Positions 8,333 to 54,356 of a DNA stretch of 64,000 nt are shown here, piece by piece. Source of the DNA: Gemmatimonadota bacterium (GTDB taxonomy: Bacteria > Gemmatimonadota > Gemmatimonadetes > Gemmatimonadales > GWC2-71-9); assembly GCA_003222195.1 (NCBI GenBank), contig QHVB01000032.1, positions 1 to 64,000 of the forward strand, in the 5' to 3' direction. Each line of letters starts with the position of its first letter. Within the stretch, counting starts at the first letter, position 1. Under the pieces are notes generated by a model. That model ran no database searches and was not told the DNA's origin. It saw only the letters and a program-made list of their open reading frames with translations. The position numbers were made by a program, and so were the translations under genes.

Positions 8333-9537
8333 GAGAGGTCTCTTTTCACGCGCGACAGGAATCTGCGGATAACACCGTGCGTGAAATCAGTGGTAGCCCG
8401 GACCGCCGGAAGCGGATCTTTCCAATCCAGGTAGTCGTAGCGCATCGGCTTGAAAAACGAGAGGCCGAAGTCCAATACCGTCCGCACTGGCGGTGTGATC
8501 CCAGGCCTGCCTCGCTCCCCGAGGGCAGTGATCAGCCTCTCGATGTCTCCACCCAGATGACGCATCCAGCCTCCGACACGATACCGGCTCACCTTATCAA
8601 TGGGCCCGCCGCTCGCCCACTGATAGACGAGGTATGGGAAGTCGACGCCAGCTCGGACCGCGACCTCGACTGACGCGGACAGTCGCGGGTTGATCTCCAT
8701 CAAGTACGGGACGCCGGCATGGTCACGGCGGAACTCAACCTCGGAGTACCCCTCGAGGTTGATCTCGCGCACGAGCGATTCGGCTTGACGCCCGATGTCA
8801 GGCGGAATGGCGATGCTCTGCCGCACGACCGATTGCCCGCCCAATGGGGGTCTGGTTCGCTTTGCCCATTGCGCGAAGCGCGCGCAGACCTCGCCATTGG
8901 CGTAAAGAAAACTCACGGCCTCGCGTTTACCGGTGAGAAATTGCTGGAACAAGGCAGCGTCCCCGAAACGCGTCACTGCCTCGACTGCGTGCCTAGCCTC
9001 ATCGGAATTGACCACGAGTCGCGGACCGACCCATGTTCCCTCGCGTCCGTCCGACACCCACGACTCGCTCGGCTTGACCACGGCTGGGAGTCCAATTTCG
9101 TTCAGCGCCCTTGGCACGTCCTCCACTGCCCGAACGACTACCTCGCGTGGGACGTCCAACCCAAGGCGCCTTGCCGCCTCCAGCGTCCGCTCCTTGTTGA
9201 CCGCAATCGAGAGTGCCCGTTCGTCCGCGAGTGCAAGCCGCACTCGTTGCTCGAGCCGCGCACGATGCGCACGCAGCAAAGCAATCGTGCCATCATGCGA
9301 GGAAACGACCACTCCGGCGCCACTGCAGTCCAGCAACTCCTCCAGCATGGCACGGTAGGCGTCCGTCGCTTCCATGGTGGGGAACAAGAACCCTTGCTGA
9401 CACCACCGGGACGAAAAAGCCGGTGCGTTGGGGGCGGTTCCCACGGCCGCGACCCGCAGTCCCCGCCGACCGAGGGATCGCACCGTCACCAACGACTGCC
9501 TCGTTGATGCATCGAGCACCAAGGCGTCGAATCTCAT
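8329..9537 (-). CDS. ATP-grasp domain protein (carbamoyl-phosphate-synthase-like ligase)
   Basis: 402 residues. The N-terminal ~110 residues form a pre-ATP-grasp Rossmann-like domain (LVTVRSLGRRGLRVAAVG). The ATP-grasp fold follows, with GLPAVVKPSESW as the nucleotide-binding strand and a metal-binding segment PYLMEINPRLSAS (E and N coordinate Mg in the family). Family members form amide or ester bonds through acyl-phosphate intermediates. It is the middle gene of a three-gene minus-strand set with the FAD enzyme (4-base overlap) and the tyrosine phosphatase 86 bases upstream. The substrate is unknown. The phosphatase and the nearby UDP-sugar epimerase make a surface-polysaccharide or secondary-metabolite role plausible, but this is inference. 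Confidence 0.8.
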   Translation of the reverse strand: MRFDALVLDASTRQSLVTVRSLGRRGLRVAAVGTAPNAPAFSSRWCQQGFLFPTMEATDAYRAMLEELLDCSGAGVVVSSHDGTIALLRAHRARLEQRVRLALADERALSIAVNKERTLEAARRLGLDVPREVVVRAVEDVPRALNEIGLPAVVKPSESWVSDGREGTWVGPRLVVNSDEARHAVEAVTRFGDAALFQQFLTGKREAVSFLYANGEVCARFAQWAKRTRPPLGGQSVVRQSIAIPPDIGRQAESLVREINLEGYSEVEFRRDHAGVPYLMEINPRLSASVEVAVRAGVDFPYLVYQWASGGPIDKVSRYRVGGWMRHLGGDIERLITALGERGRPGITPPVRTVLDFGLSFFKPMRYDYLDWKDPLPAVRATTDFTHGVIRRFLSRVKRDLS

Positions 9538-47361: not shown

Positions 47362-48387
47362 TTGAGCTCGGCCACCCTCGTCGTTCAAACCGCATTCCTG
47401 GGCGACGTCGTGCTGACGACGCCGCTGCTTTCCGCCGTCGCGGCCCATCATGGTCCGGTCGACGTGGTGACGACGCCGCTCGCGGCGCCGCTGCTCGAAA
47501 CGCACCCGTCGGTCCGGAACGTGATCGCCTACGACAAGCGCGGCGGCGACCGTGGCTGGACGGGCCTCCGGAAACTCGCGCGGCGGCTGAGGGCCGAGCA
47601 GTACAAGCGTGCCTACCTGCCCCATCGCTCGTTACGTACTGCTGCGCTCAGTGTGCTGGCGCGGATTCCCTCCCGGATCGGGTTTTCGGGCAGATGGTCC
47701 TTCCTCTATACAGTCGCTCGCCCAAAGCCAGCTCTAGGCCATGAGAGCGACCGACTTTTGGCCCTCGCGGACGAGGCTCCGGGCGCCTATCCTCCCCACC
47801 TGCGGCCCACGGCAGAGGACGAGCGGGTCGTAGCTGACGTGCTGGCGGAGATCGGCCTCGACGGCGGTGTGCCGTTCGTGGCATTGGCGCCGGGCTCCAT
47901 TTGGGGGAGCAAGAGGTGGCCGTATTATCCGGAGCTGGCGCACCGGTTAGCGGCCAAGGGTATGCCGGTGGTGGTCGTGGGCGGTCCGGCCGACGCCGAC
48001 GAGGGATCGCAGATCGTGGCGGCAGTGGCGGCGGCACAGCGCGTTGTGGCGACAAGCACGTGCGGACAGCTCACCCTCCGCCAGTCAGCGGCGCTCATCG
48101 CGCGGGCCGCGCTGCTGGTGACGAACGACAGCGCACCGCTGCATCTGGCGACGGCGATGGGGACGCGGATCGTCGCACTGTTCGGCCCCACCGTGACGGA
48201 ATTCGGGTTTGGGCCGCTCCGCGCGGGAGACGTCGCGCTGGGGCTCGACGGGCTGCAGTGCCGGCCCTGCTCGCCACACGGGCCGCAGCGGTGTCCGTTG
48301 GGACATCACCGCTGTATGCGTGAACTCACGGTTGAAGCTGTGACCCGAGCGATCGAGGATCTTGGTGCGCTACGTCGTCGGAGTTGA
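47362..48387 (+). CDS. Glycosyltransferase family 9 (heptosyltransferase-like)
   Basis: 341 residues, GT-B fold. The N-terminal domain opens TLVVQTAFLGDVVLTTPLL and the C-terminal nucleotide-sugar domain has VALAPGSIWGSKRWP and LLVTNDSAPLHLATAMGTRI. WaaC/WaaF-type enzymes of this family add heptose to lipid A-core. A Cys-rich tail (LQCRPCSPHGPQRCPLGHHRCM) is common in the family. The start is TTG 47362 with weak ribosome binding, 28 bases after the peptidase. Its 3' end overlaps the ROK kinase gene by 23 bases. It supports an LPS-type outer membrane. Confidence 0.92.
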   Translation: MSSATLVVQTAFLGDVVLTTPLLSAVAAHHGPVDVVTTPLAAPLLETHPSVRNVIAYDKRGGDRGWTGLRKLARRLRAEQYKRAYLPHRSLRTAALSVLARIPSRIGFSGRWSFLYTVARPKPALGHESDRLLALADEAPGAYPPHLRPTAEDERVVADVLAEIGLDGGVPFVALAPGSIWGSKRWPYYPELAHRLAAKGMPVVVVGGPADADEGSQIVAAVAAAQRVVATSTCGQLTLRQSAALIARAALLVTNDSAPLHLATAMGTRIVALFGPTVTEFGFGPLRAGDVALGLDGLQCRPCSPHGPQRCPLGHHRCMRELTVEAVTRAIEDLGALRRRS

Positions 48388-49327
48388 CGTTGGGGGAACG
48401 AATCTCGTCGCCGGGGTCCTCGCCGAGGACGGCTCGGAGATTCATGGCGTCGTTTCGGAGCCGACGCTCGCGGCGCAGGGTGCGGATGTCGTCACCTCTC
48501 GCATCATCAAGCTTGCCAAGGCATCGATTGCGGAGTCCGGTAAGAAGGTCGAAGGCGTCGGCATCGGCTCGCCTGGACCGCTCAATACCAAGACCGGCGT
48601 CGTGCTGCTCACACCCAATCTCGGCTGGACCAACATGCCGTTGCGCGATCGCGTCGGCGAGGGGCTCGGTCTTCCGGCCACGCTCGACAACGACGCGAAC
48701 TGCGCGATTTTCGGCGAATGGTGGCGCGGCGCGGCGCGCGGCGCGAACTACGTCATCGGTCTCACGCTCGGCACGGGGATTGGGGGCGGCATCGTCATCG
48801 ACGGTGAGATTTACCACGGCGTGACCGACGTCGCCGGCGAATTCGGCCACGTCACGATCGATGCCAACGGACGCCGCTGCAAATGCGGCAACTACGGCTG
48901 CATCGAGGCGTACGCGTCAGGCCCGGCGATCGCGGAGCGTGCGATCGAAGGTATCGAATCGGGGGTCGAGACGTCGCTGTCGCAGTACGTGAAGGGCGAC
49001 CTCTCAAAAATAAGCGCGCAGATCGTGTACGAAGCCGCAAACGACGCCGACGAATGGGCGCTCGAGGTCGTGCGCGAGACCGCGTCGCTGCTCGGCGCGG
49101 CGGTAGCGAGCTTCCTGAACATTTTCAACCCGGAGGTCGTCGTGATCTGCGGCGGCGTCACGCAGGCGGGGGACAAGCTCTTCAATCCGCTGCGCAGCGA
49201 GGTCAAGCGCCGCGCGTTCAAGCCGGCGTGGGAAGCCTGCAAGATCGTCCCGGGCACACTCCCCGGCACCGCGGGCGTGTTCGGCGCGGCAGCGGTCTTC
49301 ATCCAAAAACATTGGGGACTGCGCTGA
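48365..49327 (+). CDS. ROK-family sugar kinase (glucokinase-like)
   Basis: 320 residues from GTG 48365, preceded by GAGGA five bases upstream; TTG 48362 is also possible. ATP-binding VGVDVGGTNLVAGVL, the ROK signature with DVAGEFGHVTID, and the zinc-site CKCGNYGCIEAYAS (C-x-C-x4-C) are intact. Such enzymes phosphorylate glucose or N-acetylated hexoses in the cytosol. It overlaps both neighbours (GT9 by 23 bases, PfkB by 16), so translation is coupled. It could supply hexose phosphate for the sugar enzymes encoded here. Confidence 0.93.
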   Translation: MRYVVGVDVGGTNLVAGVLAEDGSEIHGVVSEPTLAAQGADVVTSRIIKLAKASIAESGKKVEGVGIGSPGPLNTKTGVVLLTPNLGWTNMPLRDRVGEGLGLPATLDNDANCAIFGEWWRGAARGANYVIGLTLGTGIGGGIVIDGEIYHGVTDVAGEFGHVTIDANGRRCKCGNYGCIEAYASGPAIAERAIEGIESGVETSLSQYVKGDLSKISAQIVYEAANDADEWALEVVRETASLLGAAVASFLNIFNPEVVVICGGVTQAGDKLFNPLRSEVKRRAFKPAWEACKIVPGTLPGTAGVFGAAAVFIQKHWGLR

Positions 49328-50247
49328 AGCGACTCGGCGTCATCGGGTCCATGGTGTGGGACACGATTTACGGCCGCGATCCCGCCCAACCCGCCGTGCA
49401 AGAATGGGGCGGGATCTCCTACGCGCTCGCCGCCCTCGATGCCACGCTGCCCGAAGATTGGCAGATTGTCCCGTTGATCAAAGTCGGGCGCGACCTCGCG
49501 CCAAAAGCCAACGAGTTTCTCCGCAGCCTCCGACGCACGACGCACGACGTACGATTCCTGGAAGTTCCTCAGCCGAACAATCGGGTGACGCTACGCTACG
49601 AATCGGCGGAGCGGCGCTGCGAGCAGATGACCGGCGGCGTGCCCCCGTGGACCTGGGGCGAGCTCGGTCCCCTCGTCCAGGATCTCGACGCGCTATACCT
49701 GAACTTCATTTCGGGATTCGAAATGAGTCTCGAAACCGCCCGGCTGCTCCGGCACGGATTCCCGCGCACCATCTACGCCGACCTGCATAGCCTCTTTCTC
49801 GGCAAGGAGCCGGATGGCCTGCGCGTCCCTCGCGCGCTTCCACAGGCGCCGGCGTGGTTCGGCTGCTTCGACATCGTCCAGCTGAACGAAGACGAGATGC
49901 ATCAGCTCGGCTCCGATCCGCTCGCGATCGCCGCCGATGCACTGGGGCAGGGCTGCACAACCCTGTGCGTGACACTCGGGAAGCGCGGCGCGGCCTACTT
50001 CACCGGGACTCCGATCCGGACCGAGCTGATCCCCGCGCCGGCCATGCACCCACCCGCATTCGACCAGGTGATCGATCCGACGGGGTGCGGCGATGTGTTC
50101 GGCGGGGCGGTCACCGCGGCGTTGTTGGCCGGCGCCCGCCTCGAGGACGCGATCCGTCTCGGCAATCAGCTCGGCGCGCGCAATGTGAGTCACCGCGGAG
50201 CGACCGGGCTGCGCGATCACCTGCTGGGCAAGCTCTCGCTGGTATGA
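49312..50247 (+). CDS. PfkB/ribokinase-family carbohydrate kinase
   Basis: 311 residues from TTG 49312 (CTG 49324 also possible); the fold opens LKRLGVIGSMVWDTIYG. The PfkB C-terminal signature DPTGCGDVFGGAVTAALLAG contains the catalytic Asp and anion hole; LCVTLGKRGAAYF precedes it. The usual N-terminal substrate loop is unusual (EWGGISYALAALDATL). The substrate may be a sugar, nucleoside or sugar phosphate. The stop overlaps the next ATG (ATGA). The start is uncertain because neither codon has a good ribosome-binding site. Confidence 0.85.
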   Translation: MGTALKRLGVIGSMVWDTIYGRDPAQPAVQEWGGISYALAALDATLPEDWQIVPLIKVGRDLAPKANEFLRSLRRTTHDVRFLEVPQPNNRVTLRYESAERRCEQMTGGVPPWTWGELGPLVQDLDALYLNFISGFEMSLETARLLRHGFPRTIYADLHSLFLGKEPDGLRVPRALPQAPAWFGCFDIVQLNEDEMHQLGSDPLAIAADALGQGCTTLCVTLGKRGAAYFTGTPIRTELIPAPAMHPPAFDQVIDPTGCGDVFGGAVTAALLAGARLEDAIRLGNQLGARNVSHRGATGLRDHLLGKLSLV

Positions 50248-51167
50248 CCCGCCTCATCGAAGTGCCCACGCAGTTCGACGACCGCTCCTTCGATCAATTC
50301 GCGGCGGCCTACGCGCAGGCGGCCGATGGGGGGGACGAGCGTCTCCTGTTCGACGCACACGCGGCCGAGTGGGCATCACCGTACGGTCTCGTGGGCCTGC
50401 TCGCCGCGGGCGAAGCAGCCACGCGCAAGGGGGAGCGTCCGCTGCTCACCGCCCCGGCGAACCCGGACGTGGTGAGCTACTGGGCCCGCGCCGGTTTCTT
50501 TCGCGAAGCCGCGGACCTGTTCGAGGTACACGGCAAGGTGCCGAAGGCGAAGGTCGCGACGGAGAGTGAGGTCCTGCTCCCGGTCACGCCGGTCCGGGCG
50601 GCCGAGGACGTGCACGCGGTGGTGAGCACCATCCAGCAACGCGCGTCCGCGATTCTCAGCTCGGAGTTGGGACTCGATCCGAAGGCGACCATGGGTTTCG
50701 CTATGGCGCTTTCGGAGTCTTGTCAGAATATTGTGGAGCACGCCGGCACCGGGGGCTGGGTTGCGGTGCAGGCGTACAACTGGCGGCGCAAGCTGGCGCG
50801 CCGCGTGGTGGTGATCGCGGTCGCAGACGCCGGTGTCGGCTTCCGGCATTCATTGGAACCCACGCAGGCCAAGCGGTTCGGCGAGCGCTGGGGCGATGCC
50901 GCGGCGCTGGAGGCGGCGTTGATTCAGGGCGTCAGCCGCTTTCGCGACCCGGGACGCGGACAGGGGCTCGCCGGGATCCGTCGCTACCTCGCGCGCTGGG
51001 AAGGGAAGGTCGCCATTCGCAGCGGTACGGCGCGGATCGCGATCGTGCCGCGCTGGGACGACGATGTTCCGCTCAAGGAAGGGTTGCCCGCGTTTCCAGG
51101 GTCGCAAGTGCTGCTCATCATTCCGGAACAGGTGTCGGAGAAAGCAGGGGGGTCGTCGAAGCAGTGA
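50244..51167 (+). CDS. GHKL ATPase protein with N-terminal STAS-like region (anti-sigma/partner-switch type)
   Basis: 307 residues, no signal peptide. Residues ~1-100 resemble a STAS-type domain (LLFDAHAAEWASPYGLVGLL). The rest is an HATPase_c (GHKL) domain of serine-kinase/anti-sigma type: N-box SESCQNIVEHAG, G1 VADAGVGFRHS and G2 GRGQGLAGIRRYL. There is no dimerisation His, so it is not a normal sensor kinase. It is linked by a 4-base overlap to a STAS-like gene, a pairing that suggests a SpoIIAB/SpoIIAA-style switch. No sigma factor or PP2C phosphatase is nearby. It lies in the operon leading to ftsEX. Confidence 0.8.
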   Translation: MTRLIEVPTQFDDRSFDQFAAAYAQAADGGDERLLFDAHAAEWASPYGLVGLLAAGEAATRKGERPLLTAPANPDVVSYWARAGFFREAADLFEVHGKVPKAKVATESEVLLPVTPVRAAEDVHAVVSTIQQRASAILSSELGLDPKATMGFAMALSESCQNIVEHAGTGGWVAVQAYNWRRKLARRVVVIAVADAGVGFRHSLEPTQAKRFGERWGDAAALEAALIQGVSRFRDPGRGQGLAGIRRYLARWEGKVAIRSGTARIAIVPRWDDDVPLKEGLPAFPGSQVLLIIPEQVSEKAGGSSKQ

Positions 51168-51595
51168 TTCCACACATCATGGTGCATGCCGTCCTGCAGC
51201 AAGCGGTCGCCGGGTTCTACACCGACCTCGTCACGCGGCCCACCGGGCGCGCGGTGCGCGAAAACATCGAGCGGGATCTGCCCGCCGGCACGATCGCCGT
51301 GATGGACTTTACCGGCGTCGGCTGCCTCGACTATTCCTGCGCAGATGAGATCGTCGCCAAGCTCGTCCGCGATAAGGTCAAAGTGCTGCTGCTGCGCGGG
51401 CTGACGGATGCCCATCGCGAGGCGATCGAGCCGGTGCTCGCCGGTGCCGGGCTCGCGGTGCTGTGCGAGCGAGCCGACGGCGTGCTCGAGGGGCTCGGCG
51501 CCAGTGAGCCGGCGCCGGCGCTGCTCGATGAGCTCATCGAGCGGCGGCTGGCGGCACGCATTCCGGGAGGCTCCATCCGACTCACCGCGGCGTGA
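51164..51595 (+). CDS. STAS-like protein (DUF4325-type), likely partner of the GHKL ATPase
   Basis: 143 residues from GTG 51164 (overlapping the ATPase stop) or 138 from ATG 51179. The core AVMDFTGVGCLDYSCADEIV matches the STAS strand-helix that carries the regulatory Ser in anti-anti-sigma factors (Ser 58 here, in DYSCAD). It is followed by VKVLLLRGLTDAHREAIEPV and a C-terminal helix. It is cytosolic. It is coupled on both sides (GTGA with the ATPase, GTGA with the PLP enzyme). The anti-anti-sigma role is an inference from the pairing. Confidence 0.75.
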   Translation: MIPHIMVHAVLQQAVAGFYTDLVTRPTGRAVRENIERDLPAGTIAVMDFTGVGCLDYSCADEIVAKLVRDKVKVLLLRGLTDAHREAIEPVLAGAGLAVLCERADGVLEGLGASEPAPALLDELIERRLAARIPGGSIRLTAA

Positions 51596-52749
51596 AACGC
51601 CGCCGTCTGGGCCTGTCCACTCGCGCCATCCACGGCGATCCCAAGGCGCGCGCCGACTGGTCGGCCGTCGTTCCCCCGCTCCACCAAAGCGCCACATTCA
51701 CCAATCCCGTCGGCTCGACCGCCGAAGTCCTGTACAGCCGCTACGGAAACAATCCCAATCAGGTCGACATCGGCAAAAAACTGGCGCTCCTCGAGGGCGC
51801 CGACGCCGCGTTGTTCCTGGCGAGCGGGATGGGTGCCTGCGCGCTGGCGCACCTCGCCGTGTTGCGCCCCGGCGATCACCTGCTGGCGAGCGAGTGGATT
51901 TACGGCGGCGTGTACCGGCTGTTCCGCGAAGAGTTCGGCAAGCTGGGGATCGAGGTCTCGTTCGTAAATCCCACGCAGCAGCGCACCTGGAAGAAGGCGA
52001 TGCGCAAAACGACGCGCGCCGTCTTCCTCGAGACGCCGACGAATCCGGTCATGCGTGTGATCGATCTCGAGCCCGTCGCGACGTTGTGCAAGGCCGAGGG
52101 CCTCGCGCTGATCGTCGATTCGACGTTCGCGTCACCGGTGAATTTCCGCCCGCTGGAGCACGGCGCCGACCTCGTGATCCATTCGGCGACGAAATACCTG
52201 AACGGCCATACGGATGTGATCGCGGGAGCGGTCGCGGGAACGGATCAAGTGGTGGAAGAGGTCCGCCGGCTGATGCAGGTCTGGGGACAGGCGATCGATC
52301 CATTCGCCGCCTGGCTGATCGATCGCGGCATGCGGACGCTCACCGTGCGCGTCCGACGCCAGAACGAGATCGGGCTGGCCGTGGCGGAATGGTGCGCCAA
52401 GCAGGACGCGATCTCCAAGGTCCACTACCCCGGCCTGCCGTCGCATCCCGATCATGAGCTGGCGAAACGCATCCTCGGCGGCTTCGGCGGCATGCTCGGC
52501 ATCGAGCTGAAGGGCGGCGTGCGCGCCGCCGAGCGGTTCCTCAAGGCGCTGACGATCGCGGCGCACGCGCCCAGTCTGGGCGGTGTGGAGACACTGGTCT
52601 CGGAGCCGCGGCTCACCTCACACGCCAGTCTCACGGCGGAACAGCGCGCGCAGGCTGGCATCCCGGACGGATTTCTGAGATTTTCCCTGGGACTGGAGGA
52701 TCCCGATGATCTCATCGCGGACTTCGCCCAGGCCCTGGCGCGGCACTAG
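51592..52749 (+). CDS. Cys/Met-metabolism PLP-dependent enzyme (cystathionine synthase/lyase family)
   Basis: 385 residues. The PLP-Lys is in HSATKYLNGHTD, the phosphate-binding part in ALFLASGMGACALA, and the family motifs YSRYGNNPNQ and VFLETPTNPVMRV are present. The family includes cystathionine gamma-synthase, beta- and gamma-lyase and methionine gamma-lyase; the exact reaction cannot be chosen from sequence alone. GTG 51592 overlaps the STAS stop by four bases, and ftsE follows with no intergenic base (TAGATG). Its place between a regulatory pair and cell-division genes is unusual. Confidence 0.92.
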   Translation: MKRRRLGLSTRAIHGDPKARADWSAVVPPLHQSATFTNPVGSTAEVLYSRYGNNPNQVDIGKKLALLEGADAALFLASGMGACALAHLAVLRPGDHLLASEWIYGGVYRLFREEFGKLGIEVSFVNPTQQRTWKKAMRKTTRAVFLETPTNPVMRVIDLEPVATLCKAEGLALIVDSTFASPVNFRPLEHGADLVIHSATKYLNGHTDVIAGAVAGTDQVVEEVRRLMQVWGQAIDPFAAWLIDRGMRTLTVRVRRQNEIGLAVAEWCAKQDAISKVHYPGLPSHPDHELAKRILGGFGGMLGIELKGGVRAAERFLKALTIAAHAPSLGGVETLVSEPRLTSHASLTAEQRAQAGIPDGFLRFSLGLEDPDDLIADFAQALARH

Positions 52750-53502
52750 ATGATCAAGTTCACCAACGTGTTCAAGGCCTTCCCCAAGGGCGGCCTGGCG
52801 CTCAAGGACGTCTCGTTCCATGTCGCCAAAGGGGAGTTCGCCTTCCTCACCGGCCACTCCGGCGCGGGCAAATCGACGGTCATGAAGCTCATCTACGCCG
52901 ACGAGCGCCCCACGTCGGGCGAGGTGCGCGTTTCGGGATACAACGTGAACGAGATGCGCCCCCGCGATGTCCCCATGCTGCGCCGCAAGCTCGGCATCGT
53001 ATTTCAGGATTTCCGGCTGCTCGAGGACCGCACCGCCGAAGAGAACGTCGCGTTCACGCTCGAAGTGACGAGCGCGCGCTCCTCGACAATCGCGGCGCGC
53101 GTGATGCGCGTGCTCACGCAGGTCGGCCTCGCGGCGAAGGCGCAGGCGTACCCGCGCGAGCTGTCGGGCGGCGAGCAGCAGCGCGTCGCCATCGCGCGGG
53201 CACTGGTCAATGAGCCGACGGTGCTCCTGGCTGACGAGCCCACCGGCAACCTGGACGAGCGCGCGACGCGCGGTGTCTTCCAGCTGCTCCGAGACATCAA
53301 CGCGAGCGGCACCGCCGTCGTGATGGCGACGCACGATCTCGATCTCGTGCGCCAGGCACCATACCGAGTGATCGAGCTGCAGGAAGGCGCGCTCGTGTAC
53401 GACTCCGCGGTCGACGAGGCGGGCACACACGACCAGGCGACCAGTGGGGGTGGGGGTGGGGGTGGGGGTGGGGGTGGGGGTGCGGGGGGGGGGGCGTCAT
53501 GA
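52750..53502 (+). CDS. ftsE: Cell-division ATP-binding protein FtsE with poly-glycine tail
   Basis: 250 residues; the family is usually about 220-230. Walker A is GHSGAGKST, the signature LSGGEQQRVAIARAL, and Walker B VLLADEPTGNLD. FtsE powers FtsX to activate septal wall hydrolases through a periplasmic coiled-coil factor. The extra ~20 residues at the C-terminus are almost only glycine, produced by (TGGGGG)6 and a G11 run (53445-53494). The stop overlaps the ftsX ATG. Slippage in the G11 run would alter only this tail but would also move the ftsX start context. Confidence 0.96.
   Translation: MIKFTNVFKAFPKGGLALKDVSFHVAKGEFAFLTGHSGAGKSTVMKLIYADERPTSGEVRVSGYNVNEMRPRDVPMLRRKLGIVFQDFRLLEDRTAEENVAFTLEVTSARSSTIAARVMRVLTQVGLAAKAQAYPRELSGGEQQRVAIARALVNEPTVLLADEPTGNLDERATRGVFQLLRDINASGTAVVMATHDLDLVRQAPYRVIELQEGALVYDSAVDEAGTHDQATSGGGGGGGGGGGGAGGGAS
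53445..53494 (+). repeat. (TGGGGG)6 and G11 homopolymer at the ftsE-ftsX junction
   Basis: Six perfect TGGGGG units (53445-53480) are followed by TGC and eleven G (53484-53494). The G11 run ends four bases before ATG 53499 of ftsX and is the only purine-rich candidate ribosome-binding region for that gene. Confidence 0.92.
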
Positions 53503-54356
53503 ACCTCACGCTGCGCGAATCGATGTTGACGTTCAAGCGCGCCCCGTTGCTGTCGGCGCTGTCCGTCACCACCATCGCGTTTTCCCTGTTCGTGCTGGGA
53601 CTGTTCGGCCTCGTCGTCGTGAACCTGCAGGATGCGTTGCGCGGCGTCGAAGAGCGCGTCGAGGTCGTGGCCTACCTGCTGCCGGGCGCACCGGTCGAGG
53701 CGGTCGCACAGGCGCTCAAGGACATCGAAGCCTTTCCGGAGGTTCAGTCGGCGATGTACGTCTCCGAGGACGACGCGCTCGCCCGCGCCCGCGCCGAGCT
53801 GGTCGAGCTCCGGGATGTGATGCAGGAGCTCGAGCGCAATCCGTTACCTGCCTCGATCGAGGTGAAGCTCAAGCCGGGCTTTCGCGATACGGATCACGTC
53901 AGCGCCGTCGCGGAGCGGCTGCGCGGCTTCGGGTTCGTGGACGATGTGCGTTTCGGACGCGATTGGGTCGAGAAACTCGACCGCCTGCGCGGCCTGGCGG
54001 CTGCCGTCGGCATCGTCGTGGGCGCGGCGTTCGCAGTGGTCGCGATCATCATCATCGGCACGACGATCCGGATGGCGGTGCTGCAGCGCAGCCGGGAAAT
54101 CGCGATCATGCGGCTCGTGGGGGCCACCGATGGTTTCATCCGCCGGCCGTTCCTGTTGCAGGGCGCCATCAAGGGACTGCTGGGGGGTGCTGTCGCGATC
54201 GGCCTGTCGTTCGCGGCGTATCTCCTGATCAATCGGTACCTGCTCCAGTCGGCGTTCTTCACACGGGAGCAAGCGGCCGCGATCGTGGCGTTCGGGGCAC
54301 TCATCGGATTGTTGGGTAGCGCGATGAGCGTGGGGCGGCACTTGAAGCGCGTATGA
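53499..54356 (+). CDS. ftsX: Cell-division ABC permease-like protein FtsX
   Basis: 285 residues, four membrane helices: one near 25-45 (TIAFSLFVLGLFGLVVVNL), a periplasmic domain (~50-150) that contacts the wall-hydrolase activator, then three helices with the FtsX-family segment LQRSREIAIMRLVGATDGFI and C-terminal AIVAFGALIGLLGSAMSVG. It couples FtsE ATP hydrolysis to the periplasmic activator encoded next. Overlaps of four bases occur at both ends. Confidence 0.95.
   Translation: MNLTLRESMLTFKRAPLLSALSVTTIAFSLFVLGLFGLVVVNLQDALRGVEERVEVVAYLLPGAPVEAVAQALKDIEAFPEVQSAMYVSEDDALARARAELVELRDVMQELERNPLPASIEVKLKPGFRDTDHVSAVAERLRGFGFVDDVRFGRDWVEKLDRLRGLAAAVGIVVGAAFAVVAIIIIGTTIRMAVLQRSREIAIMRLVGATDGFIRRPFLLQGAIKGLLGGAVAIGLSFAAYLLINRYLLQSAFFTREQAAAIVAFGALIGLLGSAMSVGRHLKRV

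Follow-up and report, generated by a model that had tools for sequence, protein, structure and literature searches.

A Conserved Gene Pair of Gemmatimonadota Probably Encoding a Kinase-Target Switch Built Like CapK/CapS

Results and Discussion

Gene Content of the Locus

The window, that is, the whole stretch of 64,000 nucleotides analysed here, carries two intact reading frames encoding a predicted GHKL-type protein kinase and a STAS-domain protein (Table 1). Four-base overlaps were found on both sides of the pair and within it (pfkB/kinase at 50244-50247, kinase/STAS at 51164-51167, and STAS/MetC-like at 51592-51595), ftsE starts one base after the end of the MetC-like gene, and an M23 gene also lies among the downstream neighbours. 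The description of the two genes in an earlier note on this DNA, as a GHKL ATPase and a STAS-like protein coupled by four bases, was borne out by the domain matches and by the overlaps. The same note had set the pair between sugar kinases and cell-division genes, embedded in the ftsEX operon. The upstream part of this description stands, with pfkB overlapping the kinase gene, but the gene for the MetC-like PLP enzyme separates the pair from ftsE; the pair does not lie directly in ftsEX, and the description omits a gene.

Table 1. Features of the gene pair and its neighbourhood in the window.
Feature	Position	Strand	Remarks
ROK-family kinase, glucokinase-like	48362..49327	+	PF00480 E 1.6e-68
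pfkB-family sugar kinase	49330..50247	+	PF00294 E 1.9e-18; start approximate
STAS-GHKL protein kinase gene (CapK/VapK-like)	50244..51167	+	307 aa; CapK profile match
STAS-domain target gene (CapS/VapS-like)	51164..51595	+	143 aa, GTG start; CapS profile match
Candidate phospho-acceptor Ser58 codon (TCC), STAS protein	51335..51337	+	Invariant in 46/46 orthologues
C-terminal winged-helix remnant, STAS protein	51500..51592	+	Last helix and wing; boundary approximate
Cys/Met metabolism PLP enzyme (MetC-like)	51592..52749	+	PF01053 E 1.8e-123
ftsE and ftsX	52750..54356	+	TIGR02673 E 2.3e-88 (over cut-off); FtsX TIGR00439 E 2.1e-69

Neither a sigma factor nor a PP2C phosphatase gene was found next to the pair among the neighbours scanned or read, in agreement with the earlier note. 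No immune operon adjoins the pair, and no gene for a VapC-like PIN nuclease is present beside it, the neighbours being the MetC-like gene, ftsE, ftsX and the M23 gene. The 3' end of ftsE (53446-53499) is made up of successive (GGGGGT)-like repeats, which encode a tail of poly-glycine directly ahead of ftsX and are possibly prone to slippage.

The Kinase

The kinase comprises a STAS-like region (residues 1-97) and a C-terminal GHKL ATPase domain (residues ~110-295), the latter matched by PF13581 (E 9.9e-7) and PF02518 (E 3e-6), both over cut-off. The STAS-like character of its N-terminus, already proposed in the earlier note, was confirmed by matches of STAS_2 to eight of the 39 kinase orthologues (best E 4.4e-5), by a match of the family profile to the STAS-type structure 4hyl (E 0.017), and by an AlphaFold2 model (mean pLDDT 87.8) in which residues 1-97 form a confidently predicted alpha/beta domain ahead of the GHKL domain. 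All 39 orthologues are identical at E158, N162, D195-x-G197-x-G199 and G237-R-G-Q-G241; E158 and N162 show the E-x-x-x-N spacing of SpoIIAB. The loop of the STAS-like domain that corresponds in position to D-S-S-G of SpoIIAA contains an invariant Pro46, typically within [SD]-P-Y-G, so that this domain is unlikely to be a phospho-acceptor itself.

A fold search with the kinase model placed CheA P4 on top and RsbW lower down, and the family gave weak matches to RsbA and RsbW. In PADLOC, the GHKL stretch matches DrmA (E 1.9e-9), and so does CapK, more weakly; this match is not read as an indication of defence.

The STAS Protein and Its Winged Helix

The STAS protein matches the STAS-like family DUF4325 (PF14213) with E 0.0086, below cut-off. 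The match is centred on an S-[FC]-A-D-E motif and falls mostly under the family cut-off among the orthologues too, and the DUF4325 model covers no winged helix, unlike most STAS-protein orthologues. The motif surrounding the candidate phospho-acceptor reads D56-x-S58-C-A-D-E62, with D, S and E invariant in all 46 orthologues (Ser58 is S61 in the numbering of L104). Elsewhere in the phylum, a 417-aa single chain (L159:508-1761, +) appears to fuse a STAS-like region, a GHKL domain and DUF4325, as a one-piece version of the pair.

Outside the clade of the window, the orthologues are mostly 175-200 aa long and possess an extra C-terminal domain. Winged-helix families match this domain (TrmB in 14 and MarR_2 in 12 of the 46 members, the latter with a best E of 2.3e-5), and in most orthologues it is a winged helix of TrmB/MarR/ArsR type. 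Winged-helix regulators were also the top PDB matches of the target profile, and in the model of a full-length orthologue (mean pLDDT 92.6) a STAS-like domain leads into a winged-helix domain of three helices. In a fold search with this model against a copy of the PDB to April 2026, which predates the CapS entries, the top matches were Csa3, RsbS and winged helices.

The winged helix is present in 65 of the 93 tree rows. In the window the STAS protein is cut to 143 aa, the first two helices of the winged helix being missing and its last helix and wing kept. On the kinase tree, 27 of the 28 short STAS forms fell into one clade with 99% SH-aLRT support, and most of the winged helix was lost once, by deletion, in this clade. 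A separate shortening was observed in L061 (L061:8957-9406; 149 aa), outside the window clade. The short tail that remains is constrained, its pairwise identity being about 0.57-0.69 per block versus 0.49-0.96 in the rest of the protein. Where present in full, the winged helix is less conserved than any other part of the target: its blocks show a pairwise identity of 0.23-0.37, versus up to 0.82 for the STAS blocks. This poor conservation is the main ground for caution about DNA binding.

Comparison with Known Kinase-STAS Systems

The earlier note had seen in the pair a resemblance to the SpoIIAB/SpoIIAA partner switch. This holds for the general type, since a GHKL kinase of the serine kinase type and a STAS target are encoded by adjacent genes, as in SpoIIAB/SpoIIAA and RsbW/RsbV, but not for the details. 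The kinase has an extra STAS-like domain relative to SpoIIAB and RsbW; the target, with its extra winged helix in most orthologues and the phospho-site D-x-S-C-A-D-E instead of D-S-S-G, is not a single-domain antagonist of the SpoIIAA or RsbV kind; and no sigma factor or phosphatase lies beside the pair. CapK/CapS is closer.

CapK (HTH-STAS-GHKL) and CapS (STAS-wHTH) are encoded upstream of immune operons (EMBO J 2026; PMC13373217). Single-stranded DNA activates CapK, which phosphorylates CapS at Ser54, whereupon the CapS dimers dissociate and leave the DNA; the kinase-repressor pair was shown to turn on bacterial immune genes after DNA damage (PMC13373217). The main text of that paper does not mention Gemmatimonadota, and no paper was found on the present pair in this phylum.

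For comparison, profiles were built from CapS WP_001567865.1 and the product of the adjoining CapK gene (from a plasmid record), with the addition of two relatives having both genes and two having a CapS-like gene only. With hhalign, the kinase profile matched the CapK profile with E 1.1e-13 over 264 columns and the target profile matched the CapS profile with E 1.5e-9 over 145 columns, the phospho-site motifs being in register; both alignments extend across most of the respective protein. Single sequences gave E 5.1e-8 over 214 columns for CapK and 6e-4 over 144 for CapS. The controls from the same genome gave E 7.8e-4 over 51 columns for RsbW and 5.7e-3 over 25 for RsbV, values not strictly comparable with those for CapK/CapS because the profile sizes differ. 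The target profile also matched the CapS crystal sequence 9z71 (E 0.015) across both domains. CapK/CapS is thus the closest characterised system.

The pair shares with CapK/CapS a STAS-GHKL kinase gene followed directly by the gene of a STAS protein with a conserved serine. D56, S58 and E62 correspond to D52, S54 and E58 of CapS in the pattern D-x-S-x-x-x-E, and, as in CapK, a STAS domain stands ahead of a GHKL domain in which the N-box and the glycine boxes are intact. Unlike CapK, the kinase has no N-terminal HTH and begins at the STAS domain, with the upstream gene overlapping it by four bases; the HTH of CapK is dispensable (PMC13373217). The winged helix differs from that of CapS as well, since it is truncated in the window copy and its clade, although present in most orthologues, and lacks in these the N-A-S-T and GG residues of CapS. 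The pair further differs in having no immune operon downstream and in being a class-wide core locus beside sugar kinases. The aromatic residue that senses ssDNA is Trp68 in CapK, where it stacks on the ssDNA, and Phe54 in VapK (PMC13373217). Trp68 aligns to a gap beside Phe11 of the present kinase, a position occupied by Leu in 14 of the 39 orthologues, so that ssDNA sensing is unsupported across the class.

VapKSC provides a second comparison, VapK having no HTH and VapS a short C-terminal region, as in the window clade, whose domain order is therefore the same as that of VapK/VapS (PMC13373217). The pair differs from VapKSC in that no VapC/PIN gene lies next to it and that its short tail is a winged helix shortened by deletion in the clade. 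That the pair is an immune regulator or a toxin-antitoxin module, CapKS or VapKSC proper, is thus highly improbable in spite of the shared domain order: neither an immune operon nor a PIN-domain gene adjoins, searches of plasmids gave no relatives of either protein, and the pair forms a near-universal core locus and not an island.

A classical partner switch, in which the kinase would, as an anti-sigma factor, sequester a sigma factor encoded elsewhere and be antagonised by the STAS protein, could be argued from the anti-sigma kind of the GHKL and STAS domains and from the weak matches to RsbA and RsbW. We consider it improbable. The profile similarity to RsbW and RsbV of the same genome is short and weak beside that to CapK/CapS, the winged helix of most orthologues gives the STAS protein an output of its own, and canonical modules with phosphatases sit elsewhere in the genome, namely a complete RsbV-RsbW-PP2C module on contig C8 (L173, C8:7500-12500) and an RsbR-RsbS-RsbT-RsbX-like module on contig C48 (L174, C48:214500-219500). 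An association with sigma-factor genes in relatives, which the earlier note had named as contrary to its proposal, was not found, the loci read showing no such gene next to the pair.

Conservation and Gene Order in Gemmatimonadota

The kinase gene is present in 146 of 151 relatives (105 of the 106 good genomes), nearly always as a single copy, and the STAS gene in 190 of 200 genomes of the phylum, with nearly all families of the class covered. The STAS gene was found in none of six genomes of another class of the phylum; a search with the kinase profile, which included no positive control, gave no match in that class or in the ten genomes that lack the STAS gene. The conservation of the pair goes far beyond chance; the pair is a near-universal core locus of one class.

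Gene order was compared at 84 loci of the order Gemmatimonadales, many of them closely related, and 15 loci of other orders, a phylogenetically non-independent set; each count below comprises only the loci whose flanks permit the respective test. Downstream of the kinase gene, the STAS gene was present in 82/82 Gemmatimonadales loci and 15/15 loci of other orders, at a distance of at most 1.6 kb in all 97 and mostly with an overlap. Directly upstream of the kinase gene, pfkB was found in 77/77 and 13/15 loci, respectively, and is the most constant neighbour of the pair; the ROK kinase gene is upstream in 67/68 and 13/14. Downstream, the MetC-like gene is present in 67/69 Gemmatimonadales loci versus 4/15 of other orders, and ftsE in 62/62 versus 0/14. 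In the other orders the pair keeps the company of lepA-ROK-pfkB, the genes on its 3' side vary, and close ftsX orthologues, detected in 13 of the 15 genomes, are separated from it by 19-28 kb or by hundreds of kb, or lie on different contigs. From these counts, the sugar kinases represent the older association and ftsEX an order-level neighbour. Conservation of the pair with ftsEX in relatives, the check proposed in the earlier note, thus holds within Gemmatimonadales and fails outside this order.

A gene resembling cyclophilin-type peptidyl-prolyl isomerases was noticed by eye between the kinase and STAS genes in two family f6 genomes (L131:7911-8456, +; L134, reverse strand, 8827-9300 after reverse complement). 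Many Gemmatimonadaceae (L104, L107, L195, L201, L203, L204, L207, L208 and L212) carry a conserved gene of about 100 aa between the STAS and MetC-like genes, with a molybdopterin-dinucleotide-binding-like domain (PF01568 E 4.6e-7). An operator was sought in the corresponding gap of 300-440 bases after the STAS gene in this family, where palindromes and words were in excess over shuffled sequences; since the gap holds this gene in many species, the excess is most simply explained by coding conservation, and no operator is claimed. Rfam detected no RNA element in the gap.

The earlier note had suggested a switch acting on division or wall metabolism. In such a switch the STAS protein would bind FtsE, or a neighbouring enzyme, in a manner gated by phosphorylation. 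In MlaFB, the STAS protein MlaB binds the ABC ATPase MlaF (PMC7367683), so that regulation of an ABC ATPase by a STAS protein has a precedent. Consistent with this are the position of ftsE downstream in every Gemmatimonadales locus that could be scored and the STAS protein of the window clade, which is without a DNA-binding core. Nevertheless, a metabolic gene intervenes between the pair and ftsE, the association is limited to one order, with ftsX orthologues elsewhere in the others, and the winged helix of most orthologues points to transcription, and so to an output at the DNA instead of a switch directed at division. The suggestion is therefore unsupported and, for the pair as a whole, very improbable.

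Control of the adjacent ROK and PfkB kinases, in expression or activity and tuned to sugar status, is somewhat less improbable, although still unlikely. The genes for these kinases are the neighbours that recur most constantly, both within Gemmatimonadales and beyond it, and pfkB overlaps the kinase gene by four bases, but adjacency can reflect mere shared transcription and no operator was found in the gap after the STAS gene. A role of this kind is compatible with the explanation favoured below, for which it names a target.

Proposed Function of the Pair

The pair probably forms a kinase-target switch of the CapK/CapS build, located on the chromosome and inherited vertically. The first gene would encode a GHKL serine kinase of the anti-sigma type, which would phosphorylate Ser58 of the STAS protein; the N-terminal STAS-like domain of the kinase probably helps to sense a signal. 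The unphosphorylated STAS protein would be the active form, probably a dimer, which phosphorylation would break up. In most of the class the STAS protein has a winged helix, and the switch there probably controls transcription through DNA binding.

In the window clade, with the winged helix reduced to a short conserved tail, a weakened output or one moved to a protein partner is more likely; the truncation suggests that the partner there may be a protein, as in VapKS. A more specific version, put forward only tentatively and considered doubtful here, is that a CapS-like repressor was rewired in place, so that the present target of the switch is a protein, either FtsE or a neighbouring enzyme; it derives from the single deletion of most of the DNA-binding domain, with full conservation retained in the kinase and at the phospho-site.

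Conclusions

The 2026 description of CapK/CapS presented a regulator carried by immune operons. With a class-wide, non-immune core version, the kinase-repressor unit would also serve as a housekeeping switch, and this version would give a second entry point to what the STAS-GHKL sensor detects. The clade in which the winged helix is mostly lost provides a natural test of a change of output in such a switch and, if the rewiring is true, Gemmatimonadota would offer, within a single core operon, a natural series that leads from transcriptional to post-translational output.
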